A stretch of 64,000 bases of DNA, taken from Mugil cephalus. Lineage: Eukaryota > Chordata > Actinopteri > Mugiliformes > Mugilidae. Both the position numbers and the translations under genes were made by a program. The stretch spans positions 820,501-884,500 of the forward strand of contig NC_061791.1 in assembly GCF_022458985.1 (NCBI RefSeq), read 5' to 3'. Below the pieces are notes generated by a model. It searched no databases and had not been told where the DNA came from. It saw only the letters and a program-made list of their open reading frames with translations. This document shows positions 512 to 61,775 of this stretch, piece by piece; position 1 is the stretch's first letter, and every line of letters begins with the position of its first letter.

Positions 512-12683
<12,172 letters not shown>

Positions 12684-22200: not shown

Positions 22201-25200
22201 TGATACGATTGATGCTAATGCGATGCTAACGTCACGTGTTGAGTCTGAACTGTGACTCGTTTGAACCAGGTGGAGAAATCACCTCCACCTTCGATCACCC
22301 TGAGATGGTGAAGCTCGGCCACTGTAAGCTGATCGAGGAGGTGATGATCGGAGAGGACACGCTCATCCACTTCTCTGGAGTCGACATGGGTACGAGATGA
22401 ATGAATGAATGAATGAATGGATGCATCTGTTATTTGTCATTTAGATTTCCATCAAAATGAAACTTCAGAGCAAAGCAGAGACACTCAAACAGAAACACTA
22501 TGTAAAGGCAAAAACATTTAAAATAATATCAGTATCAATGTAAAACTGAGAAACATTGAATATAAACTGTAAACACAGTCTGAATATTCAGGAATTTACA
22601 ATAATTTTAAGCAGTTTAGTTAAATAAACGTAATGAACCTCTATATAAAGCTGCTGTGTCCAGTTAGATTTTACTGCAACAGCTTCAATTAATTTAATGT
22701 TAATGTTGAAACTTTAGTAAAAACATAAATTATATTCTTAACGTAGCCTCTTAATCCTCCTGTTACCTTTAAAAACCTTTAAATTTACTAACATCAGCAA
22801 TTTAAACCTCCACAATAATTATTACAAATTAAAAATTTCCCAAGTTTATGTGTCAGGTTCTTTTATATTTGTCTAAATGTCTTTTTAATAGAAATTTATA
22901 GATAAAATCTCACTGACTTTAAGTTAGAAATAAATGTGTTTATATCATTTCTAAATTCATATTCTCTCTATAACATTTCTGAATGAAAAACTATCATGTA
23001 GAATAATAAGATATATCAGTGTCCTCATTAAATTAGGAAAATTCACTAAATGTTATGTTAATTTATGTTTTGAGACGTTAACGGTTAAATATTGGCAAAA
23101 ATATCCCTTTAAAAAAGAACGGCGGCCATATTGGAAACGGCTTCCAAAGCTAGTGAGTGCAGAGCCTGGATGAATCCACCAGGGGGCAGACGACTCGTAT
23201 TTAAAGGGTCTGCAGCAGGTTTTAAGTGTTGATTGAACCGAGTCCGTCCCGCGGTTCGTTGAGGCTGTGACCTCTGACCTCTGACCCCTGGCTCCTCCCC
23301 CTCTCAGGTGAGGCCTGCACCGTGGTCCTACGAGGAGCCACTCAGCAGATCCTGGACGAGGCCGAGCGCTCGCTGCACGACGCCCTCTGCGTTCTGTCCC
23401 AGACGGTGAAGGAGCCGCGCACCGTCTACGGAGGAGGTAAAAACACAGAGTCAGGACCAGAACCAGGACCAGAACCAGAACTAGAACCAGAACCTTTAAT
23501 CCCTGTGCGTGTCCTTGTTCTTCAGGCTGCTCTGAGATGCTCATGGCCAAGGTGGTGACTGATCTGGCCAATAGGACACCAGGAAAGGAGGCGGTTGCCA
23601 TGGAGTCGTTTGCGAAGGCTCTGAGGATGGTTGGTACCAGGACGTCTGTGATGAAACGCTTGTATGATGTGAAACATTTCTCTGATCGCCTCCTCTTCTT
23701 CTTCTCCTCCTCCTCCAGCTTCCCACCATCATCGCTGACAACGCCGGCTACGACAGCGCCGACCTGGTGGCTCAGCTCAGAGCTGCACATCAGGAGAACA
23801 AGACCACGTATGGACTGAGTGAGTAGATGAAGAGAATCAAACACAAGGAGCAGGAACATTTAGAGGCTGGAGACGAACATCTAAAAAAAAAAAAAAAAGA
23901 CGACTGATTCACGTCTCAGGTGGCATTCAGGAACAATACGACACGTCGGTGCTGTAAATGTGGCATTTCATTCGAGGATGTTTAGTTGTGTAACTTTGAG
24001 AACTGTACAAAGAACCTTAGAGACAGAGACTTTACTATAATCCCACTCTAAAAAAACAACAACAAACCAAAAAACACACACACACACGGAAAATAAGAAT
24101 AAGTGCGTAGAAAAATATTCATGTTGTTCTGTTCTCACTGTTCATTGGTCTAAAGCATCTTTAACTTCTTTATATGAGCTACGTTACCTGGTTTATTCAG
24201 CGTATATATTCAGATTAATGAAAACTAATAATTCCATCATTTATTTACAACTATTCACTCAAATACCATAAATCTGATGGATTTATTTATTCTTTTACTA
24301 AGAAGTCTTTAAAAAGTCTTTTTAAATTTTAAATCATCTAAAAAGATTTTTATTTGTCATTTACAACCAAACAGAAGCCTGAGATGGAACGAAGTGATTA
24401 TTACTAGTAACTATAATGTATAAATACTAAGTAAAACTGTATAGATGGAAATAAAAGGAAGATAAATAAAGTAGAAATATAAATAAAAGCAGAGACAGAG
24501 CAGCGTGATTTATCAGAATCACTGCTTCTACTCAGTGTTCAGAACAGAGATAAGAAGAAAACTAAGAGTCAGATAATTATAGTCAAAATATACATAACAA
24601 CATGTACCAGTGTGAATGAACCTGTGCTGAGTTGTTGCTCTATAATAATAACAATAAATATATGAGGAAATATCTGTAAGACGTGACGAACAGAAGTGAG
24701 ACAGGTACAGATGAAGTTTAGAGATGAAAACAAACGTCTTTTATTAGTTGGTTTCACCCTGTGATCGTGACTGGTCCACTGATGTTGTCGGCCTGATGTG
24801 ACCTTGCAGACATGTCTGAAGGCACCGTGGGAAACATGGCGGAGCTCGGCATCACCGAGTCCTTCCAGGTGAAGCGTCAGGTGCTGCTCAGCGCCTCCGA
24901 GGCGGCCGAGATGATCCTGAGGGTCGACAACATCATCAAGGCTGCACCCAGGTCAGTCCGGCCTCCAGTGGCATCATTAGCGTCATTAGCATCATTAGCT
25001 TCAGTAGCATCATTAGCATCGGTAGCATCATTAGCTTCAGTGGCATCAGTAGCATCATTAGCGCCATTAGCTTCAGTAGCATCATTAGCATCAGTAGCAT
25101 CATTAGCACCATTAGCTTCAGTAGCATCGGTAGCATCATTAGCTTCAGTAGCATCATTAGCATCGGTAGCATCATTAGCTTCAGTGGCATCAGTAGCATC

Positions 25201-25301
25201 ATTAGCATCAGTAGCTTCAGTAGCATCAGCAGCGAATGTTTACTGATGTTTGTCTGTTGTTTGTTTGTAGGAAGAGAGTTCCCGACCATCACCCCTGCTA
25301 G
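19204..25301 (+). CDS. cct2: T-complex protein 1 subunit beta (CCT2), 16 exons
   Basis: Beta subunit of the cytosolic TRiC/CCT chaperonin, the ATP-driven double ring that folds actin, tubulin and many other proteins. Exons: 19204-19206 (the ATG alone), 20176-20250, 20352-20417, 20521-20632, 20724-20800, 20885-20997, 21219-21421, 21520-21620, 21708-21835, 22078-22181, 22270-22389, 23308-23436, 23526-23629, 23719-23818, 24810-24951, 25271-25301; 1608 nt, 535 residues, the same length as human CCT2. Visible: [19 protein letters not shown], the ATP-binding GDGTTSV (96-102), apical-domain segments, GGGCSEM (about 409-415), [11 protein letters not shown] and a C-terminus VPDHHPC. No frameshift or missing motif. 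The third-last intron holds a long AT-rich spacer (22390-23307). ATTAAA at 25373 and AATAAA at 25504 are candidate poly(A) signals. Confidence 0.98.
24966..25225 (+). repeat. Trinucleotide-based minisatellite in the last cct2 intron
   Basis: Units mixing GCATCATTA, GCTTCAGTA and GCATCGGTA run for about 260 bases directly after the donor of exon 15. Because the period is a multiple of three it stays open (AlaSerLeu/AlaSerVal), but a good GTCAGT donor precedes it, so it is intronic. Confidence 0.85.
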
Positions 25302-26171
25302 AGGAGGAGGAGGAGGAGGAGGAGAACATGGGAGGGATCAGTTGTGTTATTTATCACCTCTGTGTAGCTCAAATTAAAGTCCTTTTCTCTGTTGACTGTG
25401 GATGCACCGCGCAGGCTAGCAGGCTAACGCTAGAAGCTAAACATGGCTGGCTATGCTAACATTAGCCGATGAAAGTCTGGATGTTGTTTGTTTTGTTTAC
25501 TGAAATAAATGAACCGATCCTCATGAGATCAGCTGATTCGTTTTTATTTGTTGTTTTTTTGTTTGTTTTTTTAAACCATAAAAAAAGAACCAATGTGAAT
25601 CATCTTCTAATCATTTAACCCGTCGTCTGGTTGTGGTTCTTGTTTTTACTGCGTCAGGTCAAAGTGACCGAGACCTCAGAGAGTCAACAGACCAACGTTT
25701 ATCAGCCAGAGTCCACAGACTCTTTTCTGATGATTATTAGTTTAAAATAAGACTTTTATTATTACTTCCTCCTAAATATCTGATTATATTGGGAATTTAG
25801 AAACTCAAACTGGTAAAACATGAACATAATTTATTAGAATAAAGACTTTATTGATCCCAGAGAGGAAATTCAGAGCAGGACAAGTTAAAATAAAAAGATT
25901 ATATTAAAGTACAAACAAGATTTACAGTGAAATAAATTTATTCTCACTATGATTATTTTCTTGTGTTTAATTCCAACATCCACAAACGTATGTGTTTATT
26001 TAGTTTATTGTGGATTGGTTTGAATAATCATTTCCTGTAGTGTCTTAGTTTCTGATCCGAGTGTTTTTGGGGTGGATTTCCTCTCTGGTCCAATCAGAGT
26101 CGTAGTTCTGTCTGATAAACGTCCTCGGCTCCAACCAACCAGCAGAGTCCTGCTCTGATCCAGGTCCCGAC
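25302..26171. other. cct2 3' UTR and spacer with a retroposon tail fragment
   Basis: Contains a short GAG run, the cct2 poly(A) signals, and at about 25838-25930 a copy of the common fish repeat containing CTTTATTGATCCCAGAGAGG, usually the 3' end of an L2/CR1-like retroposon. No gene seen. Confidence 0.5.
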
Positions 26172-31905: not shown

Positions 31906-43612
<11,707 letters not shown>

Positions 43613-44203: not shown

Positions 44204-44805
44204 TTACTCTAACACAGGAAGAAGGCTAGGAAGAGCTGCTATTAGCTGCACCTTGAAAATCCTTTTAGCACAGAAGCCCTTAGTCTTGAATTTCAAAGAC
44301 AGTTTCTTCTTGGACTCCGGGCAAACAATTGAAGCCTGGCTCACTGCGAAGCTCTCGGTCTCTTCGTCAGACTCAGCTTCTTCATCTTCCACGACTATGA
44401 TCTCCAGGGAGGAGGGTTCCTGGTGTCCACATTCTGGAGGTGTTCTGTCGTCTGGTATGTGATGTTCAGGTACAACCACCCTCACAGCAGAGCCTTCCTG
44501 AAACTGCTGCTCAGGTACAACCAGCACCACAGCAGCAACATCTGGAAGCTGCTGCTCAGGCACAATGACCTTCACAGAGTTCAGCTGTGGGACGTCTGGT
44601 GACTGTGTTGATGCCACTGTGACTCCAGCACGAGGCTTTCTGAATAAAGGTTTCACAAAGAACCCTTGAATTATGCCTCCCATTCTCTTCAGGGACAGTT
44701 TGCACGTCCTGGATTTAGAAGTCTGGACCTCTTCATCTCCAGGCTGAGCAGCTTCATCCTCATCTACTTCAGCCTTAAAAGAAGATGAGTCTGGGACTGC
44801 TTCTC
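44204..44805 (-). pseudogene. Broken, inverted unit of the large repeat protein
   Basis: The minus strand encodes about 190 residues matching the EAVPD ... IFKV part of the internal repeat of the ORF at 46128-51578, including KLSLKRMGGIIQGFFVKP and SSLEIIVVEDE. It differs by about 14 extra residues (with DEDEAAQ) before GDEEVQ, so it is not simply a copy of a present unit. It has no promoter or domain ends and stops in unrelated sequence. Most likely a gene fragment left by rearrangement. Confidence 0.75.
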
Positions 44806-45010
44806 CTCGGAGCACTGCTCAGTCTGAGGCTGAAGAAGTTCAGGGTCTGAAAGAAACAGGTCCAAAGTCTAAGAAGAAGGAAGGAAGTGGGAACCATTTG
44901 TAGAGGCTTGTGTGTGAAACCACCTGCCCAGCTCTCACCAGAGGCCACCACCGTGGAGATCCCTGTACCTCAACAGCAGTCACCGAAAAACAAAGGACAG
45001 CATTGCTCTG
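44806..45010 (+). pseudogene. Second fragment of the repeat protein, forward strand
   Basis: From the first base after the inverted piece, the plus strand matches the SEAEEVQGL ... LSPEATTVEI ... QQSPK segment of the same unit, with one frame disruption near 44880. In the intact gene this segment lies downstream of the inverted one, on the same strand, so an inversion breakpoint lies at about 44805. Confidence 0.75.
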
Positions 45011-45025: not shown

Positions 45026-45405
45026 ATTGATCTTATTGCACCTCACTGCACCCTATTACACATATTACTGCACGTTATTACAAGTTATTGCACAACTTAC
45101 TGCAACTAACTGCACATTATTAAACCTTATTGCACCTTATTGCACATCACTGCCCCTGACTGTTTCTTACTGCATCTTATTGCACACATTACTGGAATTT
45201 ACTGCACCATGTTGCATCTCACTGCACAGATTTCTGCACCTTATTGCGCCTTATTACAATGTATTGCACTTTATTGCACAGATTACTGCACGTTACTACA
45301 ACTTATTGCACCTAATTAATCCGTATTGTATCTTACTGCACCATATTGCAAACCTTACTGGACATTACTACACCCTGTTGCACCGTACATTGCACCGATT
45401 GAGCT
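45026..45405 (+). repeat. TTATTGCAC / TTACTGCAC tandem repeat
   Basis: About 30 imperfect units of 9-13 bases of the form CACnTTATTGCAC. It creates long open frames on the plus strand but has no gene features. Followed at about 45500-45550 by a run ending AATAAAGAAATCTTGAATCTTGAA, typical of a retroposon 3' tail. Confidence 0.85.
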
Positions 45406-45812
45406 GATTTATTAAATTACTACATCTTTCTCAGAAGGTTTTGTCTATTCTGTTTTATTTTTTGCCTTTGCATTTTGTTCACTCAGATTTTTAATCTCTA
45501 TATTCGGAACATGAAGGGAAATTGACAATAAAGAAATCTTGAATCTTGAAGACCTAATACAAAAACAGACATTTCATATTAAGCATAAATTGTTTTTAAT
45601 AGTTGGATAGTACCATAATTATGGACTTTTATTAAGACAGTAGAATCAGCCATCTTGAATCTTGAATCCTGACCTCACTGCTGTGGTGTTGCCATGGTGA
45701 TGATGTCACAGAGTCTCTGTGTTGCCATAGTGATTACGTCACTCAACACTTGATGTTGTGATGATGTCATATGATGGGATGGAATCTCCTAAGCCCCGCC
45801 CACAATTAGCAG

Positions 45813-45878
45813 AGATCAAAGGCACAGTTCCTTTGAGATCAAAGGCACAGTGCCTTTGATCTCAGAGACCTTAAATAG
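45813..45878 (+). promoter_or_regulatory. Promoter-like segment: three TCF/LEF-type sites, palindrome, TATA-like box
   Basis: AGATCAAAGG occurs at 45813-45822 and 45836-45845, and its complement CCTTTGATCT at 45853-45862. The last two form a 29-base palindrome, 14-base arms around one base (45835-45863). A fourth, weaker CCTTTGAG lies at 45830-45837. A GC box (CCCCGCCC) lies at 45794-45801 and TTAAATA at 45871-45877. The segment ends about 250 bases before the first ATG of the large ORF. AGATCAAAGG is the published TCF/LEF consensus; use as a promoter is inferred. Confidence 0.5.
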
Positions 45879-45879
45879 G

Positions 45880-46025
45880 AGCCGATTCATCAAAGAGTCA
45901 TCCGAGATTCATAAGAGATTCATTAGAGATTCACTAGAGATTCATCAGAGATTCACACGAGATTCATACGAGATTCATACGAGATTCATCAGAGATACAT
46001 ACGAGATTCATACGAGATTTATCAG
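45880..46025 (+). repeat. 12-base minisatellite in the presumed 5' leader
   Basis: About 12 units of GAGATTCATACG / GAGATTCATCAG. It lies between the TATA-like box and the ATG of the large ORF, so it is probably transcribed. Confidence 0.85.
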
Positions 46026-46127
46026 AGAGAAGAGTTAGATAGTTAAATCGCTTGATCTTCGATAAAAAAGCAACGCTATTCGGGCAACTTGAAACTTTCA
46101 AACCCGTCAACCTACACATCCAAGATT

Positions 46128-49100
46128 ATGTATCGTAATACGACAACAACAGGTCCAATGGACAGAGGGAGCTATTCCCAGACAGAGGAGATCCCACAGA
46201 TCACAATGGACACGGTTCGTCCGCTGATCGAATCCTTTTTCAGGAGCATCACAACAGACCAGTGGGCATGTTTGAGTTTAGGTAAACCAGACGATGTTAC
46301 CTGTTCTATGCTGGCACAGCTGCTGTCAGACTTGATAGAGCTCATTTCTAAATCATTGCTGGAAAAAATCAAACAGGGGCATCTTATTTCTGAGGAAGGT
46401 GTCTTGACCAGCGTGGGCAACACACTTCCTCAAACCTTTGCTCAAGTCCTGGACATTAAAGAAGAGGTCCGCTCTGAGACTTCAGAGGCGTTGACCAGCT
46501 TAATTGCTCAAGACGTGGTTGAGAACGTCAACTCCATCCTCTCTGCTGGCGAGGACACTGAAGAGCAGGAAGTCCAACGACACGTCACTCCCAAAAGAAG
46601 AATCAGACGTATGGTTCGTTACATCAGCAAGATGTTGGAAGAATTTATTGCAAAGATGACGCACAAACCCAGAAAAAATAAGAGGAAAAGGAAAAGTGTG
46701 GCCACCCCACTAGAAGACGAAGACACTGACAAAAAGTCAGAAGATCTGGAGTCTACAAAAACTAAAAGTGGCATTCAATCATTAGACGCATACATCCAAG
46801 AGACAGCCTCCATAGGAGACAAGGAGAGCTGCAAGACTAAAACACCAGAAACAGACATAGACAGAGAGGAGATCCAAGGAGAAGCAGTCCCAGACTGGTC
46901 AGGAGATGAAGAAGTCCAGACTCCTAAATCCAGGACATGCAAACTGTCCCTGAAGAGAGTGGGGGGCATAATTCAAGGGTTCTTTGTGAAACCTTTATTC
47001 AGAAAGCCTCGTGCTGGAGTCACAGTGGCATCAACACAGTCACCAGACGTCCCACAGCTGAACTCTGTGAAGGTCATTGTGCCTGAGCAGCAGCTTCCAG
47101 ATGTTGCTGCTGTGGTGCTGGTTGTACCTGAGCAGCAGTTTCAGGAAGGCTCTGCTGTGAGGGTGGTTGTACCTGAACATCACATACCAGACGACAGAAC
47201 ACCTCCAGAATGTGGACACCAGGAACCCTCCTCCCTGGAGATCATAGTCGTGGAAGATGAAAACGCTGAGTCTGACGAAGAGACCGAGAGCTTCGCAGTG
47301 AGCCAGGCTTCAATTGTTTGCCCAGAGTCCAAGAAGAAACTGTCTTTGAAATTCAAGACTAAGGGCTTCTGTGCTAATAGGATTTTCAAGGTGCGACCTG
47401 CTGTAGTCAGATCACCCTCTATGAGGTCATCAAAAGCTGCCTCTACAGATAGAGTTGGGTCTCAGCAGAAGGTCACTACTGTGGTGGTCACTGTTCCCGA
47501 TGAGGAATTTTCAGAGGCCATGGCTGTGGTGCTCCTAGATCCTGAAGTCAAACCAGCTCAAGACTTTGAGCAGCTGGAAACCTCCTCTCTGGACAGAGTA
47601 GTTGAGGACAGCACTGCTCAGTCTGAGGCTGAAGACGTTCAGGGTCTGAAAGAAACAGGTCCCAAGTCCCAGAAGAAATTGTCCCGGAAAGAAGTTGGAA
47701 CCATATGTAGAGGCTTGTGTGTGAAACCACCTGCCCAGCTCTCACCAGAGGCCACCACCGTGGAGATCCCTGCACCTCAACGCCAGTCACCGAAAGACAA
47801 ACCAGAAGATGTGGAGTCTAGAAAAACTAAAAGTGACATTCAAATATTTGACGCATACACCCAAGAGACAGCCTCCATAGGAGACAAGGAGAGCTGCAAG
47901 ACTAATACAACAGAAACAGACATAGACAGAGAGGAGTTCCAAGGAGAAGCAGTCCCAGACTGGTCTGGAGGTGAAGAAGTCCAGACTCCTAAATCCAGGA
48001 CATGCAAACTGTCCCTGAAGAGAATGGGGGGCATTATTCAAGGGTTCTTTGTGAAACCTTTATTCAGAAAGCCTCGTGCTGGAGTCACAGTGGCATCAAC
48101 ACAGTCACCAGACGTCCCACAGCTGAACTCTGTGAAGGTCATTGTGCCTGAGCAGCAGCTTCCAGATGTTGCTGCTGTGGTGCTGGTTGTACCTGAGCAG
48201 CAGTTTCAGGAAGGCTCTGCTGTGAGGGTGGTTGTACCTGAACATCACATACCAGACGACAGAACACCTCCAGAATGTGGACACCAGGAACCCTCCTCCC
48301 TGGAGATCATAGTAGTGGAAGATGAAGACGCTGAGTCTGACGAAGAGACCGAGAGCTTCGCAGTGAGCCAGGCTTCAATTGTTTGCCCGGAGTCCAAGAA
48401 GAAACTGTCTTTGAAATTCAAGACTAAGGGCTTCTGTGCTAAAAGGATTTTCAAGGTGCGACCTGCTGTAGTCAGATCACCCTCTATGAAGTCATCAAAA
48501 GCTGCCTCCACAGATAGAGTTGGGTCTCAGCAGCAGGTCACTACTGTGGTGGTCACTGTTCCCGATGAGGAATTTTCAGAGGCCATGGCTGTGGTGCTCC
48601 TAGATCCTGAAGTCAAACCAGCACAAGACTTTGAGCAGCTGGAAACCTCCTCTCTGGACAGAGAGGTTGAGGACAGCACTGCTCAGTCTGAGGCTGAAGA
48701 AGTTCAGGGTCTGAAAGCCACAGATCTGAAGTCCCAGAAGAAATTGTCCCGGAAAGGAACCATATGTAGAGGCTTGTGTGTGAAACCACCTGCCCAGTTC
48801 TCACCAGAGGCCACCACCGTGGAGATCCCTGCACCTCAACACCAGTCACCGAAAGACAAACCAGCCCAAGACTTTGAGCAGCTGGAGACCTCCTCTCTGG
48901 ACAGAGTAGTTGAGGACAGCATTGCTCACAACGTCCCACAGATCACTGTGGACATGGTTCGTCCACTGATCGAATCCTTTTTCAACGGCATCACATCTGA
49001 CCAGTGGGCATGTTTGAGTTCAGGCAAACCAGACGATGTTACCAGTTCTATGCTGGCACAGCTCGTCACAGACTTGATCATGCTAATCTCCAAATTCATC

Positions 49101-51578
49101 CTGGAGAAAATCAATCAAAGGCGTCATATTTCTGAGGAAGCTGTCTTGATCAGTGTGGGCGACACACTTCCTCAAACCTTTGCTCAAGTCCTGGACATTA
49201 AAGAAGAGGTCCGCTCTGAGACTTCAGAGGTGTTGACCAGCTTAATTGCTCAAGACGTAGCTGAGAGCGTCAACTCCATCCTCTCTGCTGGTGATGACAC
49301 TGAAGAGCAGGAAGTCCAACGACACGTCACTCCCAAAAGAAGAATCAGACGTATGGTTCGCTACATCAGCAAGATGTTGGAAGAATTTATTGGGATGATG
49401 ACGCACAGACCTCGAACAAATAAGAGGAAAAAGAAGAAAAGTGTGGCCACCCCCCTGGAAGACGAAGACACTGACAAAAAGTCAGAAGATGTGGAGTCTA
49501 CAAAAACTAAAAGTGACATTCAAATATTTGACGCATACACCCAAGAGACAGCCTCCATAGGAGACAAGGAGAGCTGCAAGACTAATACAACAGAAACAGA
49601 CATAGACAGAGAGGAGATCCAAGGAGAAGCAGTCCCAGACTGGTCTGGAGATGAAGAGGTCCAGACTCCTAAATCCAGGACATGCAAACTGTCCCTGAAA
49701 AGAATGGGGGGCATTATTCAAGGGTTCTTTGTGAAACCTTTATTCAGAAAGCCTCGTGCTGGAGTCACAGTGGCATCAACACAGTCACCAGACGTCCCAC
49801 AGCTGAACTCTGTGAAGGTCATTGTGCCCGAGCAGCAGCTTCCAGATGTTGCTGCTGTGGTGCTGGTTGTACCTGAGCAGCAGTTTCAGGAAGGCTCTGC
49901 TGTGAGGGTGGTTGTACCTGAACATCACATACCAGATGACAGAACACCTCCAGAATATGGACACCAGGAACCCTCCTCCCTGGAGATCATAGTAGTGGAA
50001 GATGAGGACGCTGAGTCTGACGAAGAGACCGAGAGCTTTGCAGTGAGCCAGGCTTCAATTGTTTGCCCGGAGTCCAAGAAGAAACTGTCTTTGAAATTCA
50101 AGACTAAGGGCTTCTGTGCTAAAGGGATTTTCAAGGTGCGGCCTGCTGTAGTCAGATCACCCTCTATGAGGTCATCAAAAGCTGCCTCTACAGATAGAGT
50201 TGGGTCTCAGCAGAAGGTCACTACTGTGGTGGTCACTGTTCCCGATGAGGAATTTTCAGAGGCCATGGCTGTGGTGCTCCTAGACCCTGAAGTCAAACCA
50301 GCCCAAGACTTTGAGCAGCTGGAAACCTCCTCTCTGGACAGAGAGGTTGAGGACAGCATTGCTCAGTCTGAGGCTGAAGAAGTTCAGGGTCTGAAAGCCA
50401 CAGGTCTGAAGTCCAAAAAGAAATTGACTCGTAAAGGAACCAAATGTAGACGCTTGTGTGTAAAACCATATGCCCAGCTCTCACCAGAGGCCACCACCGT
50501 GGAGATCCCTGCACCTCAACGCCAGTCACCAAAAGACAAACCAGCCCGAGACTTTGAGCAGCTGGAGACCTCCTCTCTGGACAGAGTAGTTGAGGACAGC
50601 ATTGCTCAGTCCATGGTTGAAGAATTTCAGGATCTGGAGACACATGTTCCACCCAAAACTTCAAGAAAGAGATGGTCTCTGAAAAGAGCATTTAGAGGCT
50701 TGTTTGTGAAATCACGTGCTGGAGAGGCATCAACGCAGTCACCAGACGTTACCCCCACTCGCCTCTCACCAGAGACCCCCACCATGGAAGTGACCAAACA
50801 TCACCAGTCACCGAAAGAGACACGAGCCCAAGACTTAGAGCAGATGAAACCCTCCTCTCTGCAACTTTCAATAGCTGAGGGTGGCACAGTTCAGTCTGAG
50901 GGCGAAAAAGTCCAGGATGTGGAGGAGACACCTACACCAGCGACACGTCCAAGAAAGAGATGGTCCTTGAAAAAACTCGGTAGCGCATTTAGAGGCTTGT
51001 TTGTTAGACCACGCGCTGGAGAGGCATCAACCACAGTAACATCTCCAGACGTTACCCCTGCCCGCCGCTCACCAGAGACCCCCATCATGGAAGTGACCAA
51101 ACGTCACCAATCACCGAAAGAGACACCAGGCCCAGACTCTAAGCAGAAGAAGCCCTCCTCTCTGGAGATCCCAGTAGTTGAGGACGACACTGTACAGTCT
51201 GAGCCAAAATTTACCGAGTCCTCAACAGACGAACAAGAAAGGTGCAAAACGTGTGTCAGCACTTTTGTTGAGTGCCTGGTTTTAAGGGCCTTTGCAAAAG
51301 CAAAAATACCATACGATTTCGACCAGTTTGAGGCCATCCGTTACCGACTGTACACGAAAATCTGGGCTGAATTCCAGCGTGAGAATATTAACATCCCCAC
51401 GAAAAGGTTCATGAAGCTCGACAAGGCCGTTTGGGAGGACCTGCACAGAAAGTGGAAGTCTGCACACGCTATTGTGTTTTTCATGGATCTAGGGCGACCA
51501 GTGATTGACAAAGTGATCGTGGCTTCTTTCAAAGAACATCTAATGAAGCCTAAACACAACACCAGCTGGTTCTTCTGA
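46128..51578 (+). CDS. Unrecognised 1816-residue repeat protein, apparently single exon
   Basis: I do not recognise this family. The uninterrupted ORF has its first ATG at 46128 (A at -3); the next is 46158. Layout by residue: helical domain copy 1 (about 26-205, with VRPLIESFF, LPQTFAQVLDIKEEVRSETS and RRIRRMVRYISKMLEEFI); 355-residue units at about 207-561 and 562-916; helical domain copy 2 (about 940-1121); a third unit (about 1122-1475); two shorter repeats (about 1500-1693, KRWSLK ... FRGLFV+PRAG); a unique C-terminal domain (about 1697-1816, with AIRYRLYTKIWAEFQ). Each 355-residue unit splits into three sub-repeats, each with an acidic SSLxxxVVED segment then a basic K+xSLK segment. No signal peptide or membrane span is seen; the basic clusters suggest an intracellular, perhaps nuclear or membrane-surface role. 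The DNA of the three units is nearly identical, so duplication or conversion was recent. The absence of stops over 5.4 kb argues for selection. Poly(A) signal at 51922-51927. Confidence 0.75.
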   Translation: MYRNTTTTGPMDRGSYSQTEEIPQITMDTVRPLIESFFRSITTDQWACLSLGKPDDVTCSMLAQLLSDLIELISKSLLEKIKQGHLISEEGVLTSVGNTLPQTFAQVLDIKEEVRSETSEALTSLIAQDVVENVNSILSAGEDTEEQEVQRHVTPKRRIRRMVRYISKMLEEFIAKMTHKPRKNKRKRKSVATPLEDEDTDKKSEDLESTKTKSGIQSLDAYIQETASIGDKESCKTKTPETDIDREEIQGEAVPDWSGDEEVQTPKSRTCKLSLKRVGGIIQGFFVKPLFRKPRAGVTVASTQSPDVPQLNSVKVIVPEQQLPDVAAVVLVVPEQQFQEGSAVRVVVPEHHIPDDRTPPECGHQEPSSLEIIVVEDENAESDEETESFAVSQASIVCPESKKKLSLKFKTKGFCANRIFKVRPAVVRSPSMRSSKAASTDRVGSQQKVTTVVVTVPDEEFSEAMAVVLLDPEVKPAQDFEQLETSSLDRVVEDSTAQSEAEDVQGLKETGPKSQKKLSRKEVGTICRGLCVKPPAQLSPEATTVEIPAPQRQSPKDKPEDVESRKTKSDIQIFDAYTQETASIGDKESCKTNTTETDIDREEFQGEAVPDWSGGEEVQTPKSRTCKLSLKRMGGIIQGFFVKPLFRKPRAGVTVASTQSPDVPQLNSVKVIVPEQQLPDVAAVVLVVPEQQFQEGSAVRVVVPEHHIPDDRTPPECGHQEPSSLEIIVVEDEDAESDEETESFAVSQASIVCPESKKKLSLKFKTKGFCAKRIFKVRPAVVRSPSMKSSKAASTDRVGSQQQVTTVVVTVPDEEFSEAMAVVLLDPEVKPAQDFEQLETSSLDREVEDSTAQSEAEEVQGLKATDLKSQKKLSRKGTICRGLCVKPPAQFSPEATTVEIPAPQHQSPKDKPAQDFEQLETSSLDRVVEDSIAHNVPQITVDMVRPLIESFFNGITSDQWACLSSGKPDDVTSSMLAQLVTDLIMLISKFILEKINQRRHISEEAVLISVGDTLPQTFAQVLDIKEEVRSETSEVLTSLIAQDVAESVNSILSAGDDTEEQEVQRHVTPKRRIRRMVRYISKMLEEFIGMMTHRPRTNKRKKKKSVATPLEDEDTDKKSEDVESTKTKSDIQIFDAYTQETASIGDKESCKTNTTETDIDREEIQGEAVPDWSGDEEVQTPKSRTCKLSLKRMGGIIQGFFVKPLFRKPRAGVTVASTQSPDVPQLNSVKVIVPEQQLPDVAAVVLVVPEQQFQEGSAVRVVVPEHHIPDDRTPPEYGHQEPSSLEIIVVEDEDAESDEETESFAVSQASIVCPESKKKLSLKFKTKGFCAKGIFKVRPAVVRSPSMRSSKAASTDRVGSQQKVTTVVVTVPDEEFSEAMAVVLLDPEVKPAQDFEQLETSSLDREVEDSIAQSEAEEVQGLKATGLKSKKKLTRKGTKCRRLCVKPYAQLSPEATTVEIPAPQRQSPKDKPARDFEQLETSSLDRVVEDSIAQSMVEEFQDLETHVPPKTSRKRWSLKRAFRGLFVKSRAGEASTQSPDVTPTRLSPETPTMEVTKHHQSPKETRAQDLEQMKPSSLQLSIAEGGTVQSEGEKVQDVEETPTPATRPRKRWSLKKLGSAFRGLFVRPRAGEASTTVTSPDVTPARRSPETPIMEVTKRHQSPKETPGPDSKQKKPSSLEIPVVEDDTVQSEPKFTESSTDEQERCKTCVSTFVECLVLRAFAKAKIPYDFDQFEAIRYRLYTKIWAEFQRENINIPTKRFMKLDKAVWEDLHRKWKSAHAIVFFMDLGRPVIDKVIVASFKEHLMKPKHNTSWFF
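46746..50540 (+). repeat. Three near-identical 1065-base coding repeats
   Basis: Units begin at 46746, 47811 and 49491 (each at TGGAGTCTA). The first two are directly adjacent; a second copy of the helical-domain segment (48944-49490, matching 46202-46745) separates the second from the third. Long runs of identical sequence join all three. The pattern implies duplication of a [domain + unit] block plus duplication of a unit alone. Confidence 0.88.
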
Positions 51579-51664
51579 TTTCCCAGTTCCCAGATCAGCC
51601 ATACGAGGAGACCTTCTGTTCTAGTGGTTTCAGCAAAACACAGACCAGTGGAGCAGGAGTTCCC

Positions 51665-51845
51665 TACAGTATTCATTTATTCCATTTATTTCTATTTACC
51701 TTCATTTATTCCATTTATTTCTATTATCTTCCTTTTGTTCCATTTCTTTCTGTTTAACTTCCTTTATTCCATTTCTTTCTATTTAACTTCCTTTTATTCC
51801 GTCTATTTCTATTTAACTTCCTTTTATTCTACTTAATTGTCTTCT
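51665..51845 (+). repeat. Minisatellite in the 3' UTR of the large ORF
   Basis: Imperfect units of TTCCATTTATTTCTATTTAA and CTTCCTTTTA type, period about 30 bases, starting some 85 bases after the stop codon. Confidence 0.8.
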
Positions 51846-51921
51846 ATCCAGTTTTATGTCATTTAATTCCATTGTATTCCATTTTAATCTATGTCATTGC
51901 AAAAAAAAAAAAACAAAAAAA

Positions 51922-51927
51922 AATAAA
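51922..51927 (+). terminator. Poly(A) signal AATAAA of the large ORF
   Basis: AATAAA about 345 bases after the stop at 51578, within an A-rich stretch (51901-51922) that may itself be a genomic poly(A) run. Confidence 0.5.
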
Positions 51928-51939
51928 GCATCATAAAAT

Positions 51940-52283
51940 AACATTTGAGTTATTGAATATCTCTTCTTTTTGTGTCTTTTTGAGTTCAGTTGTCGTTTAT
52001 AAATGAAGTTTTGCGCTTTGTAGGTTTGATTTCTCCTCTAAATATTGGTCATTGGTTCAGATAACTTCTAGTTGTTTCTCTATATTCACTAAATAGCATC
52101 AGTAGCTCCCAGGTTATGTTTAGAATTCACTAGAGGGGTAGACTGGGTGATCCCTCATAGAGTTTGTGGCTCAGGACAAAGATGTGAGGAATACCACGCT
52201 CAGCCTGTCGCCACTGCAGCTCAGCGTCAGAAGTAAATGTATGTGACCTGAGATATTTTTTGAGTTATTCTTATTAACAGGTT
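51940..52283. other. Spacer
   Basis: AT-rich sequence with no gene or repeat I can name. Confidence 0.4.
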
Positions 52284-52988
52284 TTATTTCTCATTCCTTG
52301 CACATCTCTTGAAATAATTGTGCTTACTTTCAAAGCACATTGTCCATAGTCTAATCAGGGGCCCAAATTTCAAAATCATTTCTGGGTAATGACGTAAATA
52401 ATGATGCTTTGGTTTCAGGCCACTTTCTGGGAATAGAGCTTTTCTCGACTCTAAATATTCTTGAATGAGAACATTAAGGTATGCAACCTGAGGGACAGAG
52501 ATTTTCTGAGCACATATCAGTGAACTGCCCCACATTATCTGCTGTATCTCACATGGTTTTGTAGAATAAATACTTAGGATAAAGTGCAACATCGTAAGAC
52601 AAAACACCCTCAAAGATGTGTGTCCCAGACAAGATAGCAAACCTGGCAGACAGACATTAAAGTATTTCAAAGAATTAAATACCGACTGAAACTTTACTCC
52701 TTTCACATCTGATGATGTATCTTCAGTCTGGAGGCGATCAACAGCAGAATTGTAGTTCTCAATGGTCTCTGGTCCACACAGATTTGGATCCCCCTGAAAG
52801 TCAGATGTGTTTATTAGGCAGAACCTACAGAAACAGTTTGAGGAGCTGAAACTGAAAGCAATACAACACAAGGTTCCCTTGACTGTTTCATTTGATACAA
52901 CAATCCCATTCTCCTCCAAGTCCTTCAAGTCAGAGAGGGTCTGAGCGATGAAGCCCATGCTGAAGTGCAAAAAACTGCAGTTCATCAA
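52284..52988 (-). mobile_element. 3' half of a fish transposon-like gene family, decayed
   Basis: The minus strand encodes FCRFCLIN, NSLKYFNVC, CLGH and then GLKPKHHYLRHYPEMILKFG and FESKHNYFKRCARN. These motifs belong to a multi-copy family of unnamed fish proteins with N-terminal C2H2 fingers, which behaves like a transposon-derived gene. The central part after CLGH is lost or scrambled (the usual DLFEG core is missing) and there is no full frame, so it is a remnant. Family assignment is from memory of the motifs. Confidence 0.6.
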
Positions 52989-60789: not shown

Positions 60790-61775
60790 CATAAAGCTGA
60801 TATCGTGGAATATAAAGGGTGTCTCAAAGTTAAACGCTATAAGATTATCTCACACCTGGAATCATTAGCATGTAATGTGGCAATGCTTCCAGAGGTCCAT
60901 TTAAAAGAAGCTGAGATGCCTAAATTAAAACACATGGGCACGACAAGTATTTTCTGCACCAGGAAGTGGAGCAGCGAGAGGTATCGGCATCCTGATAGCA
61001 AAAAGAATCTCATTTAAATTAACAGACCAAAATGCTGACAAGGATGGAAGGTACATTATAATATCACACTTCTTACAAAATCAAAAATATACATTTGTTA
61101 ACATTTATGCACCCAATTGTAATCAAGCTGTAGTTTTATAATTGTTACGTGTACTTTTATCAAAGTGTGCTGGAGATCCCATTCTGTTGGGAGGAGACTT
61201 TAATCCGACTATAGACCGCTCCAGCCGTCCCCTTCCATCACATGGAGCCCTCTCTACAGCCTTTACTGAACCAAAAAACTCATTGGCATTGATAGATGTT
61301 TGGCGCCTATTGAACCCTAATACCCGTGAATATACTTTCTATTCCATGGTTCATAATTCATATTCTCGTATAGATTATTTGCTGGTATCGAAAGCCTTAC
61401 TGGAGAGTGTGCTAGATTCTCAGATTCACAGTATTATCATATCTGATCAGGCACCTATATCAGTTCTTGACACATGCTTGACCCTCAAATTTCCAGTCTT
61501 AGGAACTCAGTTATTGCTAAAATCTGACTTGCAAGCAATGATACATGAAGAGACATCGTTGCCTTGTTTCAGTCACGCAGGAAATACTTTGAATCAGGTG
61601 AAATGGCTGGAAAAATGCTGGCACTCAGACTAAAACTAATGGAAAATCAACACTATATTCCAGCAACATATGACTGTAAGGGATCTTTAGTATGTGAGCA
61701 AAAACAAATGAATGCAGCCTTTCAGGAATTCTATTCTAATCTGCCCAAGTCAGAGTATTATTCCAATAATTGATC
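60790..61775 (+). mobile_element. LINE remnant (L1/Tx1-like endonuclease region)
   Basis: Across shifting frames the plus strand reads ISWNIKGV, RGIGILIAKRISFKLTDQ, GRYIIISHFL, FVNIYAPN, then ILLGGDFN (61184-61208) and SRIDYLLVS, the order of an apurinic endonuclease domain at the start of LINE ORF2. After another shift, ESGEMAGKMLALRLK and FQEFYSNL belong to the linker before reverse transcriptase. At least three frame breaks; inactive. It stops where the BEL/Pao remnant starts. Confidence 0.8.

Follow-up and report, generated by a model that had tools for sequence, protein, structure and literature searches.

We conclude with high confidence that a 5.45-kb open reading frame (46128-51578, plus strand) in the 64,000-nucleotide stretch of DNA analyzed here (the window) is a real gene of a vertebrate lineage, probably teleost to judge from the gene content of the window, and that it is functional or was so very recently. 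As the original prediction had claimed, the frame lacks an internal stop: its 1,816 codons end in the sole in-frame stop (51576-51578), and the other five frames across the same interval hold 43 to 108 stops each (92 and 108 on the same strand; 63, 43, and 105 on the opposite strand). Position 46128 is the first ATG; the nearest upstream in-frame stop is at 46053, and a TTG lies in the same frame at 46089. Because composition predicts ∼5% stops per codon, the frame is not open by chance even with its repeats discounted (∼1e-21 for 940 codons, a rough figure for the non-redundant part of the frame). The stronger proposal, that this is the best candidate in the window for an undescribed system, held in part. 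A selected, repeat-built protein gene whose family was not recognized here is what stood; nothing shows a system, and missing Pfam, NCBIfam, or PDB matches are common among lineage-restricted repeat proteins. Orphan genes are themselves a common kind of thing, and the ordinary reading is an uncharacterized lineage-restricted repeat gene, with a new system undemonstrated.

Repeat comparison recovered the predicted layout of a helical domain, two large units, a second helical domain, a third unit, short repeats, and a C-terminal domain, in the order H1, U1, U2, H2, U3, D, E, and C-terminal helical domain (Table 1). At the DNA level, U1 and U2 are 96.4% identical, U2 and U3 are 97.1% identical, and H1-U1 matches H2-U3 at 93.4%. 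H1 and H2 share 88% identity over a 300-nt stretch and 83% in protein over ∼211 residues, and D and E share 76 to 90% in common stretches of 50 to 162 nt. The frame was also said to have survived internal duplication, and indeed no copy within it carries a lasting frameshift; the gaps between copies are of whole codons, partly by construction, as the alignments were made on proteins. A 45-nt subrepeat is present inside each unit. Pattern searches of the frame identified 11 basic-hydrophobic segments (three per unit, one in D, and one in E), each K/R-rich, followed by [WL][ST][LR]K and an ending such as GFFVKP, IFKVRP, or LCVKP, together with 8 acidic segments of the PSSLE/TSSLD type and 15 hydrophobic segments of the VVVPE type. 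Based on the recurrence of these three segment types inside the units, we infer that each unit is itself a set of older, diverged modules. The helical domain was modeled by AlphaFold as helices (two-row alignment; mean pLDDT, 49.1), and basic clusters lie after the two helical domains, one per domain, at residues 185 and 1099.

Table 1. Features of the open frame and its flanks, with positions in the window
Feature	Coordinates	Strand	Basis
Related-gene fragment, two head-to-head pieces	44245..44994		Sequence comparison
Imperfect palindrome, 88% over 52 nt, built of a 23-nt tandem repeat, with three AGATCAAAGG sites	45812..45863		Sequence scan
TATA-like box TTAAATA (putative)	45871..45877	+	Read from sequence; inference
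11-nt repeat GATTCATNNGA, ∼13 copies, in presumed 5' leader	45884..46028	+	Repeat search
Uninterrupted frame of 1,816 aa and a stop	46128..51578	+	Frame analysis
Helical domain H1, basic cluster KRKRK near its end	46188..46737	+	Repeat comparison; helices predicted, low confidence
Unit U1, 355 aa	46740..47804	+	Repeat comparison
Unit U2, 353 aa	47805..48863	+	Repeat comparison
Partial extra copy of a segment that recurs toward the end of every unit and past U3	48853..48928	+	Repeat comparison
Helical domain H2, basic cluster KRKKKK near its end	48930..49481	+	Repeat comparison
Unit U3, 353 aa	49485..50543	+	Repeat comparison
Short repeats D and E, with KRWSLK segments	50610..51209	+	Repeat and pattern search
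Unique C-terminal domain, predicted all-helical	51216..51575	+	AlphaFold, mean pLDDT 60.7, single sequence
T-rich 29-nt repeat in presumed 3' UTR	51676..51829	+	Repeat search
AATAAA poly(A) signal	51922..51927	+	Read from sequence

The copies suggest a history of internal duplication. H1-U1 and H2-U3 would represent an older duplicated cassette, produced when the H-U part of an ancestral H-U-D-E-C protein was duplicated in frame; one U unit may then have been duplicated again, in what we take as the probable order of events. Synonymous divergence (dS) was 0.22 for H1/H2, 0.087 for U1/U3, 0.063 for U2/U3, and 0.035 for U1/U2. H and U thus differ in synonymous change (Fisher p, 0.005), which points to partial homogenization of the U units by conversion or to unequal mutation rates. 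The pair U1/U2, being the closest at synonymous sites, fits a later tandem duplication. Against U1/U2 as the latest pair, U2/U3 is not much further apart in dS and is closer in overall DNA identity (97.1 versus 96.4%), which leaves any ordering of the U copies tentative.

As a stand-in for dN/dS between orthologues, we calculated dN/dS between internal copies by the Nei-Gojobori method. The values (with Fisher p) were 0.355 for U1/U3 (0.0009), 0.336 for U2/U3 (0.0025), 0.361 for H1/H2 (0.0008), 0.533 for D/E (0.025), and 0.846 for U1/U2 (0.48). Divergence was therefore mainly synonymous in three of the five pairs (dN/dS, 0.34 to 0.36), and Fisher p fell below 0.05 in four of five; units recur across pairs, so the comparisons are not independent of one another. 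An excess of third-position changes was significant in two pairs (U1/U3, p 0.0018; H1/H2, p 0.017) and not significant in the others (U2/U3, p 0.078; U1/U2, p 0.24; D/E, p 0.47). For U1/U2, no constraint was seen by dN/dS, Fisher test, or third positions. With that exception, the copy comparisons favor constraint on the protein. A gene that died only recently, or a young copy without function whose frame has yet to acquire stops, would be consistent with the U1/U2 value and with the broken relative that lies 1.1 kb upstream of the frame. We consider this improbable, given 1,816 codons without a stop and the retention of dN/dS 0.36 by H1/H2 at dS 0.22, which indicates that selection lasted past the H1/H2 duplication.

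The flanks contain the leader, promoter-like segment, and poly(A) signal that had been attributed to this gene. No ATG was found in 45868-46127, a TTAAATA box precedes the presumed leader, and AATAAA follows the frame. Because these parts and the upstream palindrome are present, a complete single-exon gene is plausible, though not proven; its intronless state is read from the open frame itself. The frame could also be a single, very long exon belonging to a spliced gene, long exons being known in vertebrates. We judge this equally improbable, as a TATA-like box followed by an ATG-free leader, and an AATAAA 344 bases past the stop, would complete a single exon. The 5' leader may still contain an intron. 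The palindrome has a predicted single-strand DNA fold of -22 kcal/mol (z, -8.8). All three AGATCAAAGG sites in the window lie within it (0.50 expected; a count of 3 arose in 1 of 100 shuffles), and these are copies of one repeat and so not independent. We take AGATCAAAGG to be a TCF/LEF-like site from its consensus. Scanning the upstream region for bacterial promoters, an approach not applicable to an animal gene, returned nothing.

Pfam searches with the whole frame and five parts, and NCBIfam searches with the frame and two parts, yielded only matches below the curated cut-offs. The lowest whole-frame Pfam E values were 3.3e-5 for DUF5918 (24.1 bits against a cut-off of 27; E 0.011 on a single unit), 6.9e-5 for ABC_N, and 5.4e-4 for PRP21_like_P, and the lowest from NCBIfam were 4.4e-4 and 5.4e-4; scores of this kind in repeated segments sum over copies, and these matches are taken as chance. 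Sequence searches of the PDB with the whole frame and with the helical profile gave no match, and the search with the C terminus gave two, at E 1.2 and 6.6. Foldseek with the C-terminal model gave 99 matches up to E 10 and none at or below 0.001, so the fold cannot be named. Searches of IMG/VR returned 5, 41, and 4 pattern stretches for the C terminus, helical domain, and unit, respectively, and GTDB returned 12 for the C terminus, with no relative among them; this says little, because the absence of viral or prokaryotic relatives is expected of an animal gene. In a narrow search of open-access papers, limited to titles and the starts of abstracts, we did not recognize this fish gene. Fish annotations presumably include unnamed predicted teleost proteins whose helical and C-terminal domains are similar to these.

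At least two members of the gene family have existed at this locus, because a related fragment lies beside the frame. It consists of a minus-strand piece from a unit (44245-44812), in which a longer linker keeps the frame, and a plus-strand piece from a later part (44811-44994), which is frameshifted. Compared with U1, U2, and U3, the minus arm shows differences at 9/493, 8/495, and 14/498 bases, and third positions account for 6, 6, and 10 of them, respectively. The order of the arms is consistent with an origin by twin priming of LINEs; the longest exact match between the fragment flanks, where a target duplication was sought, was 9 nt, and a poly(A) tail was also not seen. An array of short, TTACTGCACC-like repeats (45032-45374) directly follows the fragment, and AATAAA and TCTTGAA repeats occur beyond it, near 45.53 kb. 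A bestrophin gene on the minus strand, with its start codon at 43612-43610, is divergent from the frame and 2.5 kb away; four exon-like frames match Pfam Bestrophin above the cut-off. Between bestrophin exon-like frames, as seen here, a minisatellite-like array (38694-41366, minus strand) encodes peptide repeats. Two other minisatellites, at 24797-25374 and 36837-37403, likewise keep an open reading frame (SLASVA and NQPTNQ peptides). Elsewhere in the window, matches were found to an NDT80/PhoG-like DNA-binding domain (4046-4333), presumably MYRF, and to a TCP-1 chaperonin, an aspartyl protease, and an endonuclease/exonuclease/phosphatase domain at 61142 that we take to be from a LINE. A 234-residue open frame (52284-52988, minus strand) had no Pfam match above the cut-off and resembles transposon-derived fish proteins.

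This setting bears on whether the 5.45-kb frame belongs to an undescribed transposon as its coding region, or derives from one as a gene. The presence of more than one copy in the window is compatible with such an origin, as are the mobile-element-like sequence at 61142 and the transposon-like frame at 52284-52988. No mobile-element family reached the cut-off in the frame in Pfam or NCBIfam, however, and no terminal repeats or target duplication were recognized between 45375-46127 and 51579-52300, because the longest exact matches between these flanks, in a search for those of at least 10 nt, were 11 nt (direct) and a T-rich run of 10 nt (inverted). We therefore regard a transposon origin as a little less probable than either a dead gene or a long exon of a spliced gene.

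The whole is best explained, in our tentative view, as a single-exon gene that is, or until very recently was, functional, that grew by in-frame duplication, and that most likely encodes a mostly disordered scaffold. The scaffold mechanism itself we consider rather unlikely. Its product would be a large, mostly disordered intracellular protein, with disorder and expression both assumed, in which the helical domains and C terminus serve as folded anchors and the 11 basic-hydrophobic segments repeatedly bind one partner; candidates for it are a calmodulin-like protein and an acidic or membrane surface. Each helical domain is followed by a basic cluster, which suggests a nuclear location and might direct nuclear entry. 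Motif tests were run on a de-duplicated sequence of 903 of the 1,816 residues. Hydrophobic 1-5-10 patterns, as in classical calmodulin sites, in a basic context numbered 4, versus 0.22 in shuffles (0/2000 reaching this count), in a sequence-level test designed after the segments had been viewed, with residue classes and a charge limit of our own choice and with the four matches in related-looking segments. The calmodulin site of AKAP79, a hydrophobic 1-4-7-8 pattern starting at Trp (PMC5698441), had 0 matches at the 11 Trp residues.

A different function for the repeats, that of a SUMO-reading hub in which repeated LEIIVVEDEDAESDEE segments act as SUMO-interacting motifs in a PML- or DAXX-like manner, is very unlikely. 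PMC8616421 describes the SUMO-interacting core as hXhh/hhXh with an acidic flank, which the three copies of LEIIVVEDEDAESDEE fit. An initial count with all repeats included (19 versus 4.1) appeared strong, but the count on the de-duplicated sequence was not significant, with at least 2, 3, and 4 acidic neighbors reached by 871, 172, and 298 of 2000 shuffles, and we demoted the SUMO reading accordingly. Most improbable of all is a Wnt-responsive, lineage-specific intronless gene whose product is a nuclear multivalent scaffold with valency that varies between species through gain and loss of the H-U cassette, the Wnt element being proposed because the three TCF/LEF-like sites adjoin the TATA-like box.

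If expressed, the frame at 46128-51578 is a candidate for annotation and would clearly illustrate how a long single-exon gene can stay coding while its cassettes duplicate. Among known systems, AKAP79/AKAP12-type scaffolds, which have a Trp-led basic calmodulin site, show a likeness in the basic W-S-L-K-R/K segments of D and E. They differ in that the Trp-led 1-4-7-8 pattern is absent here, and Pfam listed no AKAP/WSK family. PML/DAXX-like SUMO-interacting proteins differ in that the number of cores here is not above chance once repeats are removed, and are alike in that acidic and serine residues come after a hydrophobic core, an arrangement that occurs here in three copies.
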